The notes under the pieces: model-generated
Seen by the model: only the letters and a program-made list of their open reading frames with translations
What the model was told of the DNA's origin: nothing
Databases searched by the model: none
Assembly: GCA_021413595.1 (NCBI GenBank)
Contig: JAIOQD010000155.1
Coordinates: 1 to 13,800 of the forward strand
Direction of reading: 5' to 3'
DNA: 13,800 nt
Source of the DNA: Bacteroidota bacterium
GTDB taxonomy: Bacteria; Bacteroidota; Bacteroidia; 2-12-FULL-35-15
Position numbers and translations under genes: made by a program
Part shown: positions 3,004-13,800 of the stretch, piece by piece
How positions within the stretch are numbered: position 1 is the stretch's first letter
Layout of the letters: every line of letters starts with the position of its first letter

Positions 3004-5266
3004 AGGTGGTTGTATTCATATCGGTTGAGGTGTATATCAATTCCGGTGTGCCATCTTGAGTAGCTGAAAAATATAAATTGTATTGCGCTGCGTCAGTACT
3101 ACAATAAGTGTTTGGGTTTGTCCAAGAAATGACATTTTGAAACAGATCACAATCATTAGAAATACTAAAATTAGGCTGACAAGGCGGCACAAGGTCTATC
3201 GGTTGGTCACATTTTATTTGTGAACTGTTGAACAAAGGGCGTGGCAATGTACTATCGGAATATTGTCCTACACTTACTATTTTGTAGCAATAGTTAAGTC
3301 CATTTACCAATCCGGTATCAATATATGACGGAGTAATTGACGTGTCAATTTTAACAAAGGTGGATGATCCTACCGGAATTGCACGGTAAATGTCGTAGCG
3401 GTAATTTGTCCATGGTACAAACTCCTGCCATGATAAATTAATTTTTTTATCAGCAGGGACTGTTGTTAAAAACACAGAAGAGGCCGTGCTGGTGGAGCCT
3501 AAAAACAGGTTGTTAGAATAAAAATCAACGCGGTAGGTGAATGCTGAATCTTGTGTATTTAAACCCGTGCTAATAAAACTTGAATCGGTTAATTGATAAA
3601 ATGTTGGTTGAACAAAACTCGCTACCTGTGTGAATGCAGTACTTGCTGGATTAAATCCCTGTGCCTGCATTAAACGGTATTCATAAGGAGGTGGATTGCC
3701 TATGGTATCAAGGTTTGTGGAGGTGCCCAATGGTTTTACCCAACGTACCAATATACTATCGTTTGTTCCGGTGCTGATTACACTTACATTGGTGATAATA
3801 GGTACATCACGCACCAATTGAGCACAACTGTTTTGAGAGGCTAAACTTTGCGATCCATCAGAATAATACGCTATAACAACATAGGAATAATCAACACCAT
3901 TTATTAACCCTTGACCACTATTATTATCGATAAATGTAGTAAGTGAAGGTGGTGTAGCACCAATTAATGTATAGCCGGTATAGGCAGGTACACCTGTTTC
4001 GCAAGCATCCGGTACCCATGGGGAACAATTATTTTTACGGTAAATTTTATAACCAAGTAATGGATTGCTTCCTAATGTATCATTGCAAGCAGCTGTGCTC
4101 CAATTAAGGATCATGCTGGATCCGCTTGGTGTTGCAGTTAAGTTGGTAGGAGCGGGAGCTATAACCCTTATGAAAATAGATTCGAAATCAACGAGCGGAG
4201 TAGTAGGGTTGCTGTCGATGGCTTTAAAAGTAACTAAATAGGGTAATAGCTGAACCTGTGCACAGCTTGGATTCCAATTGAATTGGCCTGTTACTGGACT
4301 TAAAGAAGGTGTTGAAGTAAATGTAGCAGCAGGATTCAGCTGGAATGGTCCTCCCGTAGCATTTAAGGTAACTATATTTGATTCTGCATCAGTAGCTGTA
4401 ACCGGGAAATGTAAATTAGTACCGGCAACAATACAGGTATCATTGATGTTTTCAATTTTTGGAGCAGTATTGCTACAAGCCGCTACATCAATTTGCATAT
4501 CCCGTAATATGGATCCAATGTAATAGTATTGGTTATTATATGGGGATCTCCGGTATTCTTTAATTAAAATAGCAATATTATATTGGCAAACCATAGTGGG
4601 GGTGCACCACACCAAGTCACCTCTAATAGGATCAATAGAATTTTGAGACATATTTGGTGGAAAAGAATACCCGTAGATAGCTTGTCCATTCGCATAACAC
4701 GTGGTTAAACTATAATATAAACTATCGCCATCTAAATCAAAAGCTCCGGGATTGTGTTCAAAACATTCGCCAGTACAGGCTTCATCAATAGGTGGGTTAA
4801 GAAGTGTTGGTGAGCTATTCAAACCAAGCCAGGGATTAATGACTAATTCTGTACGGAGAAAAAATGATTGGTCAACTGAACTTGGGATATTACAAATACC
4901 GGCATTCCGATTGGGATCCTCCATGGAGATAATATAATTTCCATCTCCGGGATACGTGTGTATTATTTCGTAAATATTCTTTTTTGTGTAGGTAACAATG
5001 GATTGACCATCGGCCGTATTGCACAATAGGGAAGGCCCATTAACACGAGGAGCAATGGCACTATCGTTATCACCAAAACGAACTAGCAGATCGCAACGGT
5101 CGGCCTGAGTTGTAAGAGGATTGGTATTGGTATAGGTGGTTACAATAATCTTATAAGTTCTGCCGGATATATGCTGATAAGTAATTTCTCCCGCCCGATT
5201 GTGCGTTGCAAATGAACTGTTTAAACTAGCAAGTACTATAAAAATTAACAGGAGATTTTTTTTCAT
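2996..5266 (-). CDS. Large T9SS-exported protein of the HNRAGEITY family, N-terminal part (frameshifted)
   Basis: About 756 aa when started at the ATG at 5264-5266, which I prefer because it gives a clean signal peptide (MKKNLLLIFIVLASLNSSFA|THNRAG). The upstream in-frame ATG at 5293 would add nine residues before it. The mature N-terminus, THNRAGEITYQ, is a recognisable opening of large Bacteroidota cell-surface proteins. An Ig-like or cadherin-like segment follows (ATDAESNIVTLNATGG, residues ~290-370), then at least three fibronectin type III-like repeats (e.g. APTNLTATPSGSSMILNWS). Many Cys (C-x-C-type pairs) suggest disulphides. The frame ends NTTTFV at a TGA (2996-2998), exactly where homologues run on into SVAGCY.AVDS and the type B sorting domain. 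That continuation is present one frame over (2587-3003). The full product would be about 890 aa. As written the protein has no T9SS tail and would remain periplasmic. No ligand can be inferred. Confidence 0.85.
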   Translation of the reverse strand: MKKNLLLIFIVLASLNSSFATHNRAGEITYQHISGRTYKIIVTTYTNTNPLTTQADRCDLLVRFGDNDSAIAPRVNGPSLLCNTADGQSIVTYTKKNIYEIIHTYPGDGNYIISMEDPNRNAGICNIPSSVDQSFFLRTELVINPWLGLNSSPTLLNPPIDEACTGECFEHNPGAFDLDGDSLYYSLTTCYANGQAIYGYSFPPNMSQNSIDPIRGDLVWCTPTMVCQYNIAILIKEYRRSPYNNQYYYIGSILRDMQIDVAACSNTAPKIENINDTCIVAGTNLHFPVTATDAESNIVTLNATGGPFQLNPAATFTSTPSLSPVTGQFNWNPSCAQVQLLPYLVTFKAIDSNPTTPLVDFESIFIRVIAPAPTNLTATPSGSSMILNWSTAACNDTLGSNPLLGYKIYRKNNCSPWVPDACETGVPAYTGYTLIGATPPSLTTFIDNNSGQGLINGVDYSYVVIAYYSDGSQSLASQNSCAQLVRDVPIITNVSVISTGTNDSILVRWVKPLGTSTNLDTIGNPPPYEYRLMQAQGFNPASTAFTQVASFVQPTFYQLTDSSFISTGLNTQDSAFTYRVDFYSNNLFLGSTSTASSVFLTTVPADKKINLSWQEFVPWTNYRYDIYRAIPVGSSTFVKIDTSITPSYIDTGLVNGLNYCYKIVSVGQYSDSTLPRPLFNSSQIKCDQPIDLVPPCQPNFSISNDCDLFQNVISWTNPNTYCSTDAAQYNLYFSATQDGTPELIYTSTDMNTTTFV

Positions 5267-8724: not shown

Positions 8725-9282
8725 ATGTCAATCAGCCAGGAATTAAAAAAAAGAAATCAGGATTTATGCGAATTATGTAATGTAGAAGCCGCAACCATTG
8801 AATATACCGTAAGCCCCAAAAATGATGATTCAATTGAAAACCAAGTAGCACTTTGTGAAACCTGCATGAAGGCAATGGATGATGCTAATTCGGGCTTTCA
8901 CTGGCGCTGTATCGAAGGAAGTATTTGGAGCCCCTATTCAAGTGTTCAGGCTTTAAGTTACAGGATTCTGAATCAATACAAGAAAGAGGCCTGGGCCAGT
9001 GATCTAATCAACTCTTTGGATATAGATGAAAACACCGTACAGTGGGCATTAAGTGCTTTTGAGGTGAAAGAGGTACACAAAGATGCTTTTGGAAATGTGC
9101 TTGAAACAGGCGATAATGTGGTACTTACACAAGCACTTAATGTAAAGGGGACAAATTTTACCGCATCAAAAGGTACAGTAGTTAAAAAAATTAAACTAGT
9201 AAGTGATAATCACGAGCATATTGAAGGTAAGATAAACGATCAGGTGATCGTAATCCTTACCAAATTTGTGAAGAAAGGTTAA
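8725..9282 (+). CDS. PhnA/YjdM-like zinc-ribbon protein
   Basis: 185 aa, cytoplasmic. The N-terminus holds a four-cysteine zinc ribbon, C15-x2-C18 and C44-x2-C47. The middle (about 50-105) is a linker region seen in long Bacteroidota versions, with FHWRCIEGSIWSPYSSVQAL. The C-terminal third is the PhnA/YjdM domain (PF03831): VHKDAFGNVLETGDNVVLTQ, LNVKGTNFTASKGTVVKKIK and IEGKINDQVIVILTKFVKK. Despite the old name, this family is not phosphonoacetate hydrolase and its role is not established. It is annotated as an alkylphosphonate-utilisation-associated protein mainly because of its location in E. coli. No phosphonate genes are nearby here. It is a single-gene unit with its own terminator. Confidence 0.9.
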   Translation: MSISQELKKRNQDLCELCNVEAATIEYTVSPKNDDSIENQVALCETCMKAMDDANSGFHWRCIEGSIWSPYSSVQALSYRILNQYKKEAWASDLINSLDIDENTVQWALSAFEVKEVHKDAFGNVLETGDNVVLTQALNVKGTNFTASKGTVVKKIKLVSDNHEHIEGKINDQVIVILTKFVKKG

Positions 9283-9313
9283 AAATTTGATCGTGTTATA
9301 CTCCTTAAAATGC

Positions 9314-9349
9314 AAAAAACGAAGTCCCTTTTTAAGAGCTTCGTTTTTT
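9314..9349 (+). terminator. Intrinsic terminator after the PhnA-like gene
   Basis: AAAAAACGAAG (9314-9324) pairs perfectly with CTTCGTTTTTT (9339-9349) across a 14-nt loop, and the right arm ends in six T's. It starts 32 bases after the stop codon. The A-tract on the left also lets it act on the opposite strand. Confidence 0.85.
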
Positions 9350-9410
9350 ACAAACTTATAATTATTTTTTGAGGGTTGTGCAACAGCCACTGATGTTGGT
9401 GGCAGTGCAC

Positions 9411-9448
9411 CTTTCTTTCGAGTTACAGTCGTTTCATTCGAAAGAAAG
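9411..9448. repeat. 11-bp inverted repeat
   Basis: CTTTCTTTCGA (9411-9421) and TCGAAAGAAAG (9438-9448) are exact complements around a 16-nt loop. There is no T-tract on either side. It lies in the 236-bp non-coding gap between the PhnA-like terminator and the PIN-domain remnant, near the edge of the accessory island. Its role is unknown. Confidence 0.45.
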
Positions 9449-9518
9449 TAAGTTCTTAAATAACCCAATTTTCACTATACCTCAAAAGTTTCTGCTATAA
9501 AAGTCGGTGGACAGCCAA

Positions 9519-9863
9519 TTACATTTTCTTGATTAGTTCGTCAGGGTTGAATACAGGAATTTCAGAGCCTCTAAAGTCCTTAATATTTCGAGTTACAATG
9601 CAATCGATTTTTTCAATTAAATATGCGCAATTTATTTGAATTGCATCTTCAAAATCTTTATGCTTCGATTTCAGTCCTTTTTTAATCACGTCTATATCTA
9701 TGGGAATGATATGAATATAATCTAACAAACTATAAAGAATTTCCCGCAGTTCTTTTTCGCCAATGTGCTTTTTTAACAAATAATGTGTAGTTGCTATGGA
9801 ATGTGAGGAAGTGAATAGTTTTATCTTTTTGTCTTCAGCACTTTTGAAAATATCAATAGTTTT
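9519..9863 (-). pseudogene. N-terminally truncated PIN-domain (VapC-like) gene
   Basis: The frame is open from just after a TGA (9864-9866) to the stop at 9519. It encodes KTIDIFKSAEDKKIKLFTSS, then SIATTHYLLKKHIGEKELRE, DFEDAIQINCAYLIEKIDCI and TRNIKDFRGSEIPVFNPDEL. These are the middle and C-terminal parts of a PIN-domain ribonuclease, with acidic residues in DFEDA and the KDF motif. About 20-25 N-terminal residues, including the first catalytic Asp (the usual FLDTN strand), are absent, and no ATG lies in frame upstream. An ATG at 9865-9867 is out of frame by one base across a five-A run; restoring it would still not supply the missing strand. No antitoxin gene is adjacent. It lies just beyond the attC-like site at 9914-9976 and is most likely a remnant. 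Confidence 0.7.
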
Positions 9864-9913
9864 TCATTTTAGTTACTTGTCTGTCCGTTGATAATAGTTC
9901 GTTTTACAATGAC

Positions 9914-9976
9914 GCCCAACGAGTAGTTAAATGCAGTGGCCTTTTTAGGGCCATTGCATTTAACGGATGTTAGTTT
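9914..9976 (-). other. attC-like recombination site (attC2), 63 bp
   Basis: Read on the minus strand it begins AAACTAAC (R''-like, 9976-9969) and ends GTTGGGC (9920-9914), a perfect match to the R' consensus GTTRRRY. Between them lies a 16-bp stem with one G-T pair: plus-strand arms 9926-9941 and 9949-9964, with a 7-nt loop. Size and layout match short integron attC sites, which are conserved in structure more than in sequence. Support comes from R'' being the exact complement of the first eight bases of the same unit (GTTAGTTT, 10371-10364). The call is from anatomy only, not from a covariance-model score. Confidence 0.6.
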
Positions 9977-10154
9977 TTAGTTTTTCTTTTCACGTAGTTT
10001 TATGAACCGTCCCCTATATATAAAGAAGTCAGGCGTTTTTAGTTAAAATATTGCATTTATGTTTGATAGGTGCAGTATTTTAACGCAAAATTTTGATTTC
10101 AATCTTTCTCTCGCTACAAAATTCATTAAAGTTAATTTAAAGTTAGCCAAACAC

Positions 10155-10184
10155 TTGACTTTGTCAATCTTTTCTCTAACTTTG
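10155..10184 (+). promoter_or_regulatory. Candidate promoter in the non-coding cassette
   Basis: TTG (10155-10157) lies 19 nt before TAACTTTG (10177-10184), an exact TAnnTTTG box. This is the best two-part Bacteroidota-type promoter in the window. Transcription from about 10190 would run straight into the cloverleaf and then antisense to the end of the methyltransferase gene. The same bases also form hairpins (TTGAC/GTCAA at 10155-10167; AAAGTTAG/CTAACTTT at 10139-10183), so the match could be a by-product of palindromes. Confidence 0.4.
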
Positions 10185-10185
10185 C

Positions 10186-10250
10186 CAAGCAGTTTAACGA
10201 TGCAATCGTTTGAAAGAGCTGTCTTTCACCGATTTTTATCGAACTGCTTG
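10186..10250. other. 65-nt perfect cloverleaf fold
   Basis: An outer 9-bp stem, CAAGCAGTT (10186-10194) with AACTGCTTG (10242-10250), encloses three perfect hairpins that leave almost no base unpaired. These are AACGAT-gca-ATCGTT (10196-10210), TGAAAGA-gctg-TCTTTCA (10211-10228) and CGAT-tttt-ATCG (10230-10241). It is not a tRNA: it lacks the T-arm GTTCRA sequence, the usual loop sizes and the CCA-end geometry. Because all stems are perfect, the fold is the same on either strand. It sits at the centre of the palindromic cassette and just after the candidate promoter, so it may be a structured RNA or a DNA folding element. Confidence 0.6.
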
Positions 10251-10363
10251 AGGCTAAAATCAATGCTGATTTTAAATTAACTCCGCTCTCATTTTGAAGC
10301 CCCCCTTATTGAAATCAAAATTTTGAAAAACTCCTACTTCGCTTAGCTCGGTTCATAAAATTG

Positions 10364-10498
10364 AAACTAACGGTTTGCAGCTACACGCAGGTGGGGATTT
10401 TTAGCACTGAACTTCATTAGAAGTACAGAACTTTGATTTAGCACTTCACTTTAAAAGAAGCACTGAACCCCCACTTGCGTGTAGGTGCTGTTGGGTGC
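10364..10498 (-). other. attC-like recombination site (attC1), about 134 bp
   Basis: Read on the minus strand it opens with GCACCCAAC (10498-10490), whose ACCCAAC fits the R'' consensus RYYYAAC, and closes with GTTAGTTT (10371-10364), which fits GTTRRRY except at one base. The main stem pairs plus-strand 10381-10396 (CTACACGCAGGTGGGG) with 10469-10484 over 16 positions with one G-T pair. CAG/CTG (10378-10380 and 10488-10490) continue it across a 3-nt bulge, a kind of extrahelical base that polarises attC sites. The internal 10397-10468 is a variable loop made of repeats. The R'' box is the exact complement of GTTGGGTGC at 12414-12406, the start of the segment that carries the restriction-modification genes. 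The methyltransferase stop codon lies inside the site. Confidence 0.65.
10400..10470. repeat. Alternating imperfect repeats in the attC1 loop
   Basis: Two 15-nt motifs alternate: TTTAGCACTGAACTT (10400-10414), AGAAGTACAGAACTT (10419-10433), TTTAGCACTTCACTT (10437-10451) and AGAAGCACTGAACCC (10456-10470). This gives a 37-bp tandem period, as if a hairpin arm pair had been duplicated inside the loop. Confidence 0.6.
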
Positions 10499-11504
10499 TG
10501 GCTTTCTTTCTGTCTTCTTGTGGTTTCTTTATTACTCGTTTATTTTTGATTAATATTCTAAAGTATGGGCATTTTCCATCTATTGATAAGTCTTTGTCAT
10601 CGTTTCCTTTCCTGAATTTAATTAGTTCAAATTGGTCAGGATTAAATTTATGAAGAAATGTTATTGGTACTCCTATATGTCCATCATAGTCCAATGGTAT
10701 GTTTTCTGTTTTATCAACGTTTATACCTTCATAATTGTCATATTTTGGATATTCACTTTCGTTTCCAAAGTGTTTTTTTGTTAGCTCAATGTCTTCGTGT
10801 CGCTTGAAGTTATCTAAGTTTGTAAGCCATAAGCAATTGTTTGGTGAAATTATTCTATTTCCAAAACTATCTATTCTTGCTTCTGTTCCATAAAGTTCGT
10901 AGTGGTCAGGTACAATGAAGCCTGAAACACCTCTGCCAAGATTTATTCCTAACCAAGATTTATTCTCTTTGATAAGTTTAAAAATTTCTTTGTATGTAAT
11001 TGCGTTTATATTACCAATTATCAAAAATTTCTTGTCGTACTTTACTAATTGAGCTACATATTCTCTGAACAACGAAAATGGTGGGTTTGTAACTACAATA
11101 TCTGATTGCTTTAATAGTTCAATGCTTTCAGGACTACGAAAATCGCCATCACCTTTAAAGTGTACAATATCATTAAAAGTTGGTTTCTCCGTTTCGCCCT
11201 CTTTACCTGTATATTCAAAGGAAAAACCATTTTCAGACTCTTCAGTATTAAACAAATCATTCTTTGGTTCTTTATAGCAAGCCGCAATCAATTTTTTTAA
11301 CCCTAATTCCTTGAAGTTAGATGAAAAATATTTGAAAAAGTTACTAATGCGAGCATCATCACAGTTACAAAAAACCACCTTATCTTTAAAGTGATTTTTA
11401 TAATGTTGCAATTCACTTTCTATATCGGAAAATTGTGTGTAGAACTCATCACTTTTCGATTTTTTTGCCTTTTGCAGTAATTTGTTTGTTGCGTTTCTCG
11501 CCAT
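10446..11504 (-). CDS. EcoRI-type adenine-specific DNA methyltransferase
   Basis: 352 aa. It transfers a methyl group from S-adenosylmethionine to adenine N6, by homology in GAATTC (the second A for M.EcoRI), protecting host DNA. It belongs to the EcoRI methylase family (PF13651). The N-terminus MARNATNKLLQKAKKSKSDE is nearly the M.EcoRI N-terminus as I recall it. Other landmarks are FYTQFSDIESEL, VVFCNCDDARISNFFKYF, the catalytic motif IV TNPPF (N140-F143), FLIIGNINAITYKEIF, LGRGVSGFIVPDHYELYGTE and GKCPYFRILIKNKR. M.EcoRI is about 325 aa. Here roughly 25 extra residues follow KNKRVIKK, and the last 17 are translated from attC1 (10446-10498), so the native stop seems to have been lost or replaced when the gene joined this site. 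It starts 2 nt after the endonuclease stop, as in the ecoRIR-ecoRIM order, implying co-transcription and perhaps coupled translation. Confidence 0.93.
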   Translation of the reverse strand: MARNATNKLLQKAKKSKSDEFYTQFSDIESELQHYKNHFKDKVVFCNCDDARISNFFKYFSSNFKELGLKKLIAACYKEPKNDLFNTEESENGFSFEYTGKEGETEKPTFNDIVHFKGDGDFRSPESIELLKQSDIVVTNPPFSLFREYVAQLVKYDKKFLIIGNINAITYKEIFKLIKENKSWLGINLGRGVSGFIVPDHYELYGTEARIDSFGNRIISPNNCLWLTNLDNFKRHEDIELTKKHFGNESEYPKYDNYEGINVDKTENIPLDYDGHIGVPITFLHKFNPDQFELIKFRKGNDDKDLSIDGKCPYFRILIKNKRVIKKPQEDRKKASTQQHLHASGGSVLLLK

Positions 11505-11506
11505 GA

Positions 11507-12346
11507 TTATTCTTTATTTTTTGTTATCTGATTGAACAAATCACTTCCTAAAACTTTAAGTGAAGTTTTAGAAATTTCAATCATTATATCAAGCATTTCC
11601 TTGTTATCCCACTTTTCTCCTTTTCCTTGTGAGTAGATAGAGGTAGCTTGAAGCATAATCGTCTTATCTTTATGTTTAACGAATTTATTCGCGCACAAAT
11701 TGGTGTTAATAGGCATTCCAAAATTTGCCGAAGTTAGTCTATCTAATCTATTTAACATCCCTGATTTATATTCAAGTGTTACAATTCTTCCATCAGGTCG
11801 TTCAATCGAAATTGTTTCTGTCAAAAAATTAGAACCTTCTAAAAATAGAATGTAAGGGAAATGAGATTCAGAAAGCATAAAGTTAGCAATTTCTGATATG
11901 TTTTTATGAGACCTTTCTATAGCATTTCCTGCTGCCATTAAGTCTTGATTGTTTTTCTTGCCTACTTGTTTCCCTTTTTTGATGTTTACAATATCTTTCC
12001 CTTGATGTTTAGCTTCTGACACTAAAACTATTCTCCATTCACCGCTATCATCTTTTACTTCAATTATTCCGCCATCGGGTATTATACTTGAATTGGGAAC
12101 AAAAAGAGTTTGCCCTAATTCAGGATCGACTTTCTTTAAAGCTTGGTTTATTTCTTCTTTCCGTATACTTTTTTTATATCGAAAAGTTAATTGGGGAAAT
12201 TCTATTTTGAGTTGTTCAATTACAAGTTTTGATATTTGTCCAACTTTTAAGTCGTGTGATTTTGCCCCATCACCAAAGATTCCTACAACTCCTTGCGATT
12301 TTTTATGTTGCTTTGTCAGTCTTGTTGATTGGTTCTTTTTAGCCAT
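11507..12346 (-). CDS. EcoRI-type type II restriction endonuclease
   Basis: 279 aa (R.EcoRI is 277). It cleaves double-stranded DNA as a homodimer, by homology at G^AATTC. Similarity to R.EcoRI runs end to end: QSTRLTKQHKKSQGVVGIFG, PQLTFRYKKSI, TLFVPNSSIIPDGGIIEVKD, EAKHQGKDI, QDLMAAGNAIERSHKNISEI, ANFMLSESHFPYILFLEGSN, LNRLDRLTSANFGMPINTNL and ATSIYSQG. The catalytic PD...ExK residues D91, E111 and K113 fall at the R.EcoRI numbers. So do the DNA-recognition residues N141, A142, E144, R145, R200 and R203, which strongly supports the same specificity. It is intact and first in its operon, 2 nt before the methyltransferase. A -7 box lies 27 bases upstream, inside the cassette-like unit. Related enzymes such as RsrI share GAATTC. 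Confidence 0.95.
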   Translation of the reverse strand: MAKKNQSTRLTKQHKKSQGVVGIFGDGAKSHDLKVGQISKLVIEQLKIEFPQLTFRYKKSIRKEEINQALKKVDPELGQTLFVPNSSIIPDGGIIEVKDDSGEWRIVLVSEAKHQGKDIVNIKKGKQVGKKNNQDLMAAGNAIERSHKNISEIANFMLSESHFPYILFLEGSNFLTETISIERPDGRIVTLEYKSGMLNRLDRLTSANFGMPINTNLCANKFVKHKDKTIMLQATSIYSQGKGEKWDNKEMLDIMIEISKTSLKVLGSDLFNQITKNKE

Positions 12347-12372
12347 TTTATTAATTCTATTTTATATTCTTG

Positions 12373-12380
12373 CAAAGTTA
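12373..12380 (-). promoter_or_regulatory. Candidate -7 box for the restriction-modification operon
   Basis: On the minus strand TAACTTTG (12380-12373) matches TAnnTTTG exactly, 27 bases before the endonuclease start. That leaves a leader of about 20 nt. No good -33 element is seen. It lies inside the cassette boundary (12414), so the unit would carry its own promoter. Confidence 0.45.
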
Positions 12381-12405
12381 GCAATTACGGTCGTCTTTTA
12401 AGCTT

Positions 12406-12414
12406 GCACCCAAC
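12406..12414 (-). other. 5' boundary of the restriction-modification cassette
   Basis: Minus-strand GTTGGGTGC (12414-12406) contains GTTGGGT, a perfect GTTRRRY core. It is the exact complement of the R'' box of attC1 (minus-strand GCACCCAAC, 10498-10490). In an integron cassette the first bases and the R'' box are complementary because both take part in the same folded site in the circular form. No attC hairpin is visible just upstream, so the unit may have entered a secondary GTT site. Confidence 0.55.
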
Positions 12415-12438
12415 ATCTATATAAACACAACTTTAGCA

Positions 12439-12474
12439 TTTACAAATACTTACAAGCAATTGTAAATAATTACA
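12439..12474. promoter_or_regulatory. Cluster of TTACAA/TTGTAA boxes
   Basis: In 36 bp there are ATTTACAA (12439-12446), TTACAA (12450-12455), TTGTAAAT (12460-12467) and TTACA (12470-12474). They can form overlapping inverted repeats: ATTTACAA with TTGTAAAT, TTACAA with TTGTAA, and TGTAA with TTACA. The cluster lies in the divergent gap between the restriction operon and the AddB-like gene, so it could be an operator or an alternative-hairpin leader. No regulator is identified. Confidence 0.3.
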
Positions 12475-12567
12475 CCTCGCTTTTATTTCAAATATATGCT
12501 ATAATTGCCACTTTATTAATAAAAACTATAAAAACAATTTTCAATTAATAATCCTTAATTTCGTTCC

Positions 12568-13800
12568 ATGCAATCTTTTCTCGAAAAAACGGTAAAACAC
12601 CTGTGTGAAAAATATGGTGACAACATAAGTGAATTATGTATTGTCCTTCCCAACCGAAGAGCAGGATTGTTTTTGAAAACACACTTTGCCAACAATCTCA
12701 AAAAAACATTCTGGAGCCCTGAAATTTATGCAACCGAAGATTTTGTTGCACTGCTGGCCGAATTGGAAATTGCGGATTCAACTACCTTATTGTTTGAATT
12801 ATACGAAACAGTAAAAAATGTCAATAAAAATGAAGTAGAGAGTTTTGATGAATTCAGTAAATGGGGGCAGATTTTATTAAGTGATTTGAATGAGATAGAT
12901 CGTTATTTGGTGGATGGAACGCAATTGTTTGGAAATTTAAAGGACATAAAGGAGCTTGAAGCCTGGAGTTTAAATAGCGAAGAAGGGTTAACAGATTTTC
13001 AACAACAATACCTGCATTTCTGGCAGTCATTAGGGACTTACTATTTTGATTTTAATAAAAGGTTATTGGATAAACATCAGGCCTATCAGGGATTAGCATA
13101 TAAGATAGTTGCTTCCACTATTGAAGAAAGAATAAATAAGCACCCTTGGAAAAAAATAATTTTTGCTGGTTTTAATGCCCTGAATAAGGCAGAAGAACAG
13201 ATCATTGAAAAGTTGTTGGATCTTGGGAAAGCTGAAATTATATGGGATACCGATAGCTATTATATAAATGATATCCGGCAGGAAGCCGGTAAGTTCATTC
13301 GTAAATATGATAATCATGGAAGTTTTAAAAAGATCCCGGGTAAAAATATTGTATTTGAAGAAAACCTACTATCTACTGAAGATAAACACATTACTATTAT
13401 TGGTGCGGCAAAAAATGTAGCACAGGCAAAGGTTGCAGGAAATTTAGTAGCTGCATTTCAAAAGCAGAACACCAACCTGCAAAATACAGCATTGGTGCTT
13501 GCCGATGAAAATTTGTTGTTTCCTGTTTTACATTCACTCCCCGAAAAGTTAGAAGATATAAATGTAACAATGGGGTATCCCTTAAAGAATACGCCTATTG
13601 CGGGATACTTCGACCTCGTTTTTAATTTGCATAACAATGCTATAAAGCTAAGCCAGGGAAAAGAGAAATATAGTTTTTATCACAAGGATCTGTTAAAACT
13701 ATTGAGCCATCCGTTCAGTACTATTTTAATTTTTAATAAGGATCATCATAATTCTGTTAAGCCTGTTGTAAAGGCAATTCAGGATAGAAATATCGTATTT
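12568..13800 (+). CDS. AddB-like helicase/nuclease (PD-(D/E)XK family), 5' part
   Basis: The frame is open for 411 codons from ATG 12568-12570 to the window end. The N-terminus MQSFLEKTVKHLCEKYG, then SELCIVLPNRRAGLFLKTHF and PEIYATEDFVALLAELEI, is the standard opening of the Bacteroidota AddB/RecB-like 'PD-(D/E)XK nuclease family' proteins of roughly 900-1000 aa. The VLPNRRAGLFL stretch corresponds to the degenerate first helicase motif of AddB-type subunits, which lack a proper Walker A lysine. Further stretches are FDEFSKWGQILLSDLNEIDR, WKKIIFAGFNALNKAEEQII and NTALVLADENLLFPVLHSLP. The nuclease domain would lie beyond the window. The likely role is double-strand-break end processing together with an AddA partner. 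It is divergent from the restriction operon. Its C-terminus is not visible. Confidence 0.85.
   Translation, partial: MQSFLEKTVKHLCEKYGDNISELCIVLPNRRAGLFLKTHFANNLKKTFWSPEIYATEDFVALLAELEIADSTTLLFELYETVKNVNKNEVESFDEFSKWGQILLSDLNEIDRYLVDGTQLFGNLKDIKELEAWSLNSEEGLTDFQQQYLHFWQSLGTYYFDFNKRLLDKHQAYQGLAYKIVASTIEERINKHPWKKIIFAGFNALNKAEEQIIEKLLDLGKAEIIWDTDSYYINDIRQEAGKFIRKYDNHGSFKKIPGKNIVFEENLLSTEDKHITIIGAAKNVAQAKVAGNLVAAFQKQNTNLQNTALVLADENLLFPVLHSLPEKLEDINVTMGYPLKNTPIAGYFDLVFNLHNNAIKLSQGKEKYSFYHKDLLKLLSHPFSTILIFNKDHHNSVKPVVKAIQDRNIVF

Follow-up and report, generated by a model that had tools for sequence, protein, structure and literature searches.

We found that the EcoRI/M.EcoRI operon in this stretch of DNA is an integron-type gene cassette in a CALIN-like array. 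The stretch, called the window below, is a whole contig (C385) of 13,800 bp from a Bacteroidota MAG of 3.64 Mb (793 contigs, 84% complete). The explanation that best fits the data as a whole, and in which we have high confidence, is that the operon is a mobile cassette of integron type, in an array on the chromosome, with a tyrosine recombinase lacking the IntI-specific insert as the most likely enzyme. A sequence-only reading had described a complete EcoRI-type operon packaged as an integron-like cassette, and the cassette boundaries, the attC family and the recurrence of the unit in ten further genomes agree with that description.

The restriction-modification (R-M) cassette occupies positions 10371..12413 of the minus strand (2,043 bp, counted from the base that follows G12414 up to and including the G of the next R' box). 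It starts directly 3' of the G in GTTGGGTGC; from 12414 the minus strand reads ...ATAGATG|TTGGGTGCAAGC, which places the start at G|TTGGGTGC. The insertion point is the G of a GTT preceded by TGTTTATATAGAT (12412..12427, minus strand). The first gene encodes an EcoRI-family restriction endonuclease of 279 aa (11507..12346, minus strand; PF02963, 491 bits), of which residues 3-276 match EcoRI crystal structures at about 460 bits. The second, taken from the list of open reading frames, encodes an EcoRI-family adenine methyltransferase of 352 aa (10446..11504, minus strand; PF13651, 435 bits). Both the endonuclease and the methylase profile of the EcoRI-family type II systems were thus matched. 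The endonuclease is 74.5% identical to that of the EcoRI system of E. coli plasmids, and plasmid copies of Escherichia and Klebsiella show 74.5-77.5% identity among the matches listed. The alignment shows that the PD...EAK motif is kept. The pair is predicted to be a functional EcoRI-type system that would cut and protect GAATTC. The E. coli system is found on small plasmids, whereas the pair in the window lies in a cassette.

The cassette ends in an attC site of the long-loop type (10363..10498, minus strand), which was identified by a covariance model, by its fold and by covariation. Its R'' box, GCACCCAAC (10498-10490), is the exact complement of the cassette start at 9/9 positions, as expected of a circle joined at G|TT, and its R' box, GTTAGTTTC, lies at 10371-10363. 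Both genes lie between the cassette start and the attC, and the stop codon of the methyltransferase gene is inside the attC. The sequence-only reading had pointed out the complementary boxes and the position of this stop, and the box comparison and the ORF positions bear it out on both. The unit therefore has the features of an integron gene cassette: a 3' attC with complementary R'' and R' boxes and a folding stem, first bases complementary to its own R'', and occurrence in different arrays with different neighbours.

The covariance model, R2, was built from thirteen aligned sites after a DNA search of the same MAG with positions 9900-10510 had given ten further places. The attC of the R-M cassette, one of the 13 training members, scores 127.6 bits (E 3e-29), far above background, and R2 finds 30 sites in the MAG and sites in 33 of the 36 genomes of the genus, where the fold lies next to many other genes. 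A covariance-model check and a search for the same fold beside other genes had both been proposed by the earlier reading, and both turned out in its favour. In the core stem, 16 of 19 pairs have compensatory changes, 96.7% of cells are paired across the 13 aligned sites, and the covariation score is higher than in all 500 shuffles. One G.T pair of the bottom strand (A.C on the top strand) is invariant (13/13 sites). The bottom strand folds better at 62 of 79 sites, by a mean of 2.6 kcal/mol, although the use of a bottom-strand model to find the sites biases the comparison in that direction. A bias toward bottom-strand folding is expected of attC sites.

Complete platforms, with a recombinase, an attI-like box and a tandem attC array, were identified at loci L065 and L066 and in Flavobacterium covae, the attI being placed by the box of the first cassette. 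At L066 (genome G016) and L065 (genome G027), a tyrosine recombinase of 370-375 aa is followed by genes in the same direction that end at attC sites, and the first-cassette box lies about 100 bp past the recombinase. We tested 14 platforms: in 12 the first-cassette box was exact (9/9), 11 of them with the box 67-204 bp from the recombinase, and the other two had no such box; L073, L074, L084 and L228, with a site near the recombinase, were left out of this test. Genomes G031 and G034 have a common recombinase end and attI flank, with the 40 bp preceding the box identical, followed by different first cassettes; the same holds for two platforms of F. covae. These two platforms, at 2154 kb and 3128 kb of one chromosome (G036), have near-identical recombinases, the same attI flank and different cassettes.

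The F. covae array contains 17 R2 sites (E<=0.1), with an EcoRI cassette among them and a divergent recombinase at the array start. We scanned ten proteins of its cargo, out of 18 array ORFs of >=100 aa with the R-M pair excluded. Four match PADLOC models (AAA/PDC-M37, a type II methylase, FRG/PDC-S15 and Fic/PDC-S04), and a fifth has the Cass2 integron family as its Pfam match. Among the matches listed, 23 recombinases have an attC no more than 25 kb away; the array was downstream in the same direction in 15, on both sides in 1, upstream in 1 and divergent in 6. This count used 83 of about 150 attC sites listed and 56 of the recombinases listed, and the fraction 23/42 is descriptive only. Seven of the 20 recombinase loci fetched first had no R2 site, and all 7 contigs end <1.5 kb from the 3' side of the recombinase. 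The array recombinases in the tree and spacing comparisons are those from fetched loci, including these loci without a detected attC.

To characterize these recombinases, we compared them with canonical IntI and with other tyrosine recombinases. The spacing between the KxDR and HxxRH motifs is 58-61 in 25 of 26 measurable recombinases (66 in the other) and 100 in 4/4 canonical IntI proteins. About 42 residues are thus absent between the two motifs, as was also found by alignment to 2a3v, and the IntI-specific additional domain is missing. The 12 array recombinases scanned score 183-219 bits with the canonical IntI model TIGR02249, below its cut-off of 265, and that cut-off is exceeded in none of the 36 genomes of the genus. 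Their best NCBIfam model, in 12 of 12, is XerA / NF040815, named 'site-specific tyrosine recombinase/integron integrase' (190-232 bits, cut-off 220), and XerA also gives the highest VIA Z (22.6, rmsd 13.0 over 251 residues). Canonical IntI (2a3v) is the best Foldseek match of the recombinase AlphaFold model (E 4e-17; pTM of the model 0.51), and IntI and the array recombinases share one side of a branch with 100/100 support that separates them from XerC/D. The recombinases of L074 and L084 fall nearer to IntI in the tree, in which the inner branches are weak. Unlike XerA / NF040815 proteins, the array recombinases adjoin cassette arrays and mostly have an N-terminal extension. In the recombinases of L070, L072, L078 and L080 the extension is about 250 aa long, with repeated-looking units; no Pfam match was found for it in the one scanned.

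The arrays resemble the sedentary chromosomal integrons of Vibrio and Xanthomonas, and CALINs, in having tandem genes that end at a folded attC, with G|TT boundaries. Sedentary chromosomal integrons likewise carry defence cargo, including R-M systems (Xanthomonas, according to the part of PMC12444791 available to us). They differ from the platforms described here, in which the recombinase has no IntI insert and often carries an extension at its N-terminus. In most of our platforms, moreover, the recombinase is co-directional with the cassettes and the attI-like box lies 3' of it, while in F. covae and some others the recombinase is divergent.

We then determined how attC sites and the two kinds of enzyme are distributed in 395 genomes of the phylum. 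The attC family was found in 162, the insert-less recombinase (E<=1e-60) in 116 and canonical IntI over the cut-off in 105, all of which are lower bounds, as 8, 4 and 5 candidates, respectively, were scored per genome. Both attC and the insert-less recombinase were present in 93 genomes, attC only in 69, the recombinase only in 23 and neither in 210 (OR 12.3). Canonical IntI was depleted among attC genomes (29 with both, OR 0.45), and the 29 are all outside the host's class. Among the 97 genomes of that class, 67 have attC, 53 the insert-less recombinase, 45 both and 1 canonical IntI, which occurs in none of the 67 attC genomes. The co-occurrence of attC and the recombinase in the class has an OR of 5.6 (p 3e-4), the p values in these tests being too small because species are not independent. 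The enzyme was not detected at this threshold in 22 of the 67 attC genomes of the class, 8 genomes of the class have the recombinase without attC, and 61 of the 162 attC genomes of the phylum have neither enzyme. Integron-type structure had been called uncommon in the phylum in the earlier reading; this does not hold for attC sites, as the count for the class shows, and it does hold for canonical IntI in the class. Canonical IntI is common in the phylum outside the host's class, where 104 genomes exceed the cut-off; from the accessible part of the literature, a lower figure would have been expected for Bacteroidota. Outside the phylum, R2 found sites in 5 of 25 genomes (Ignavibacteriales, Melioribacteraceae, Chloroherpeton, one Chlamydiales MAG and one Woesebacteria MAG); these few bins hold the attC family or are contaminated.

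These distributions bear on the strongest alternative, in which the units are integron cassettes of the ordinary kind that move solely through canonical IntI from other bacteria or plasmids, and the insert-less recombinase has another role, such as dimer resolution or its own mobility. The additional domain has been called necessary or essential (in the title of Messier and Roy 2001, cited in PMC2426708, and in the part of PMC8138268 available), the formation of CALINs by an IntI located elsewhere is accepted (PMC8618304, in the portion consulted), and canonical IntI is present in more than a hundred genomes of the phylum. However, the near absence of IntI from the class and its depletion among attC genomes overall argue against this alternative, as does the position of the insert-less recombinase beside an attI-like box with an identical flank and exchanged first cassettes. 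We consider it unlikely, and retain the insert-less recombinase as the most likely enzyme of the arrays.

A second alternative is that the sites only resemble attC and are conserved ends of a different element, such as a transposon end, a REP-like sequence or a dif-module. Imperfect palindromes flank many mobile genes, and an Rfam search at E<=1 of positions 9000-13000 gave no attC family and one chance match. This explanation is contradicted by the rule that links the start box to R''. In arrays, R' matched the complement of the next R'' at 6/6 positions in 53 of 58 neighbouring pairs and in 12 of 339 other pairs, and at >=5/6 positions in 55 of 58 and 44 of 339, respectively. The 87 sites of this test came from 29 arrays or single-site loci, after 4 of 91 R2 hits had been dropped for an unclear box; the hits had been chosen so as to exclude weak ones, echoes on the wrong strand, some of the single-site loci and L088 (the same region as L222). 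The unrelated flanks of the R-M unit also contradict it. To our knowledge, this box rule, a covarying stem with a bottom-strand bias, tandem arrays in one direction and an attI-like box are not found in combination in any such element, and we regard this alternative as very improbable.

The homologous R-M unit was found to be a cassette in ten further genomes with unrelated flanks, including Flavobacterium covae, Patiriisocius, Saprospiraceae and Ignavibacteriales. With R2, seven of 80 EcoRI-homologue loci have an attC immediately to either side of the operon (Flavobacterium covae, two Saprospiraceae MAGs, Bacteroidetes 37-13, an Ignavibacteriales MAG, Patiriisocius marinus and a Urechidicola MAG). 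A model-free test, which asks for a start box complementary to R'' plus a stem, was given 74 of the 80 loci, of which 65 were testable; 9 of the 65 passed, against 15 of 1277 swapped controls, and the window passes as well. The window, the 9 passing loci and L124, which is narrowly below the stem threshold, give 11 R-M cassettes of 2,043-2,124 bp, and these align over 1,811-2,050 bp in 55 of 55 pairs. Their flanks have only 2 short matches when the 135 bp left of each cassette are excluded. The start boxes vary (GTTGGGTGC, GTTGCCTGC, GTTACCTGC and GTTAGTAGC), and R'' changes accordingly. The remaining 56 of the 65 testable loci, including those of Microcystis, Prevotella and Patescibacteria, fail the strict cassette test; the R-M operon therefore also lives outside the cassette system. 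Across loci L086-L164, EcoRI-type systems were seen in Microcystis, Patescibacteria, rumen Prevotella and others, with no cassette structure detected. Together with the small plasmids that carry the E. coli copies, these failures are what could be cited for a fixed chromosomal R-M system that lies beside an attC by chance, a reading that deserves hardly any credence given ten further genomes with a homologous unit, attC-type ends and different neighbours. Such a chance adjacency would require the operon to keep the same surroundings across distant genomes; conserved flanks, which the sequence-only reading had named as evidence that would count against a cassette, were not seen.

Beyond the R-M cassette, the window array contains a second cassette of 451 bp (9920..10370, minus strand), without an ORF of note, whose first bases, GTTAGTTT, are complementary to the R'' box of the same cassette, AAACTAAC. 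It ends in a short attC (9912..9976, minus strand), recognised by sequence and fold. The earlier reading had named an attC2 at this place; we correct that reading by assigning the site to this separate cassette, which has no ORF of note and lies on the minus strand like the R-M cassette. A copy of this site with 99% identity is present on contig C433 of the same MAG; identity stops at the GTT, and the downstream box differs. Over 119 bp, the middle of the ORF-less cassette shares 82% identity with a segment of a cassette in genome G002 (L197, about 3328-3754), and weaker matches occur in G010 and G030. It is possibly a structured RNA or small-element cassette. A third, decayed cassette starts with GTTGGGCGT (9519..9919, minus strand), followed by a PIN_3 fragment (9779-9519) that covers positions 52-115 of the 115 of the profile; R2 found no attC for it.

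The array is bordered by a chromosomal gene that we take to be AddB-like (12568..13800, plus strand, cut by the contig end), and orthologues of this gene were identified in 33 of the 36 genomes from the genus. An empty site, which the sequence-only reading had expected in related genomes, was not found in clean form in the stretches beside this gene in ten relatives. In the closest relative (G017, 97%), homology ends at window position 12535, not at 12414, and the upstream gene is different, presumably an OmpA-like gene. G002 has another cassette array beside its copy of the AddB-like gene, in the opposite orientation. A 16-mer left of the R-M cassette, TGTTTATWTAGATGTT (12427-12412), recurs in a Melioribacteraceae MAG (L124, 3023-3038), again in front of the R-M cassette. 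Two unrelated chromosomal sites thus share it, with no recombinase beside them in the stretch read. It is at background in the phylum (5 of 395 genomes, against 4 for the reversed control), and the four matches outside the window's own MAG resemble coding sequence; we therefore did not call it attI or attG. It is perhaps a preferred secondary insertion site. No recombinase was found among the window ORFs, so the locus is without the adjacent integrase of a complete integron, and the insert-less family was absent at E<=1e-60 from this MAG (84% complete, 793 contigs).

Taken together, we propose that the R-M operon entered a small chromosomal cassette array in circular form, through an exchange between G and TT for which bottom-strand-folded attC sites would be the presumed substrate. 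In the class, the most likely enzyme would be the IntI/XerA-like tyrosine recombinase without the IntI-specific insert that stands beside the attI-like box at complete platforms. The window array, being CALIN-like, may have been filled in trans or may have been cut off from its platform.

More broadly, we think it probable that a separate and widespread branch of integrons exists in the host's class, which is probably Bacteroidia. XerA/IntI-like recombinases in which the IntI-specific domain was lost or was never present would operate it, and surveys requiring this domain would have passed it over. These recombinases would act on long-loop, bottom-strand attC sites at an attI box and would carry defence cargo such as the EcoRI R-M system between genera and classes. 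The additional domain has been used as a filter in at least one integron survey (PMC2426708, in the part seen). Two reports, each available to us in part, count against full novelty: the insertion is described as 'not fully conserved' in an integron-like subgroup (PMC8138268), and attC sites with two methyltransferases have been reported on a Polaribacter phage (PMC9892861). In literature outside subscription journals and bioRxiv, we recognised no description of insert-less integrases running cassette arrays or of EcoRI as a cassette, which is a weak negative. The surprise lies in the platform, as integron-like arrays appear to be widespread in the class and tied to recombinases without the IntI insert. 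Should such recombinases indeed run the arrays of roughly half the genomes sampled in this very large class, current ideas on where integrons occur, how they arose and what the domain does would need to be revised. The EcoRI cassette offers a concrete route for the spread of the textbook EcoRI system. The finding also extends to a further group the picture, now emerging in titles cited in PMC12444791, of integrons as anti-phage libraries.
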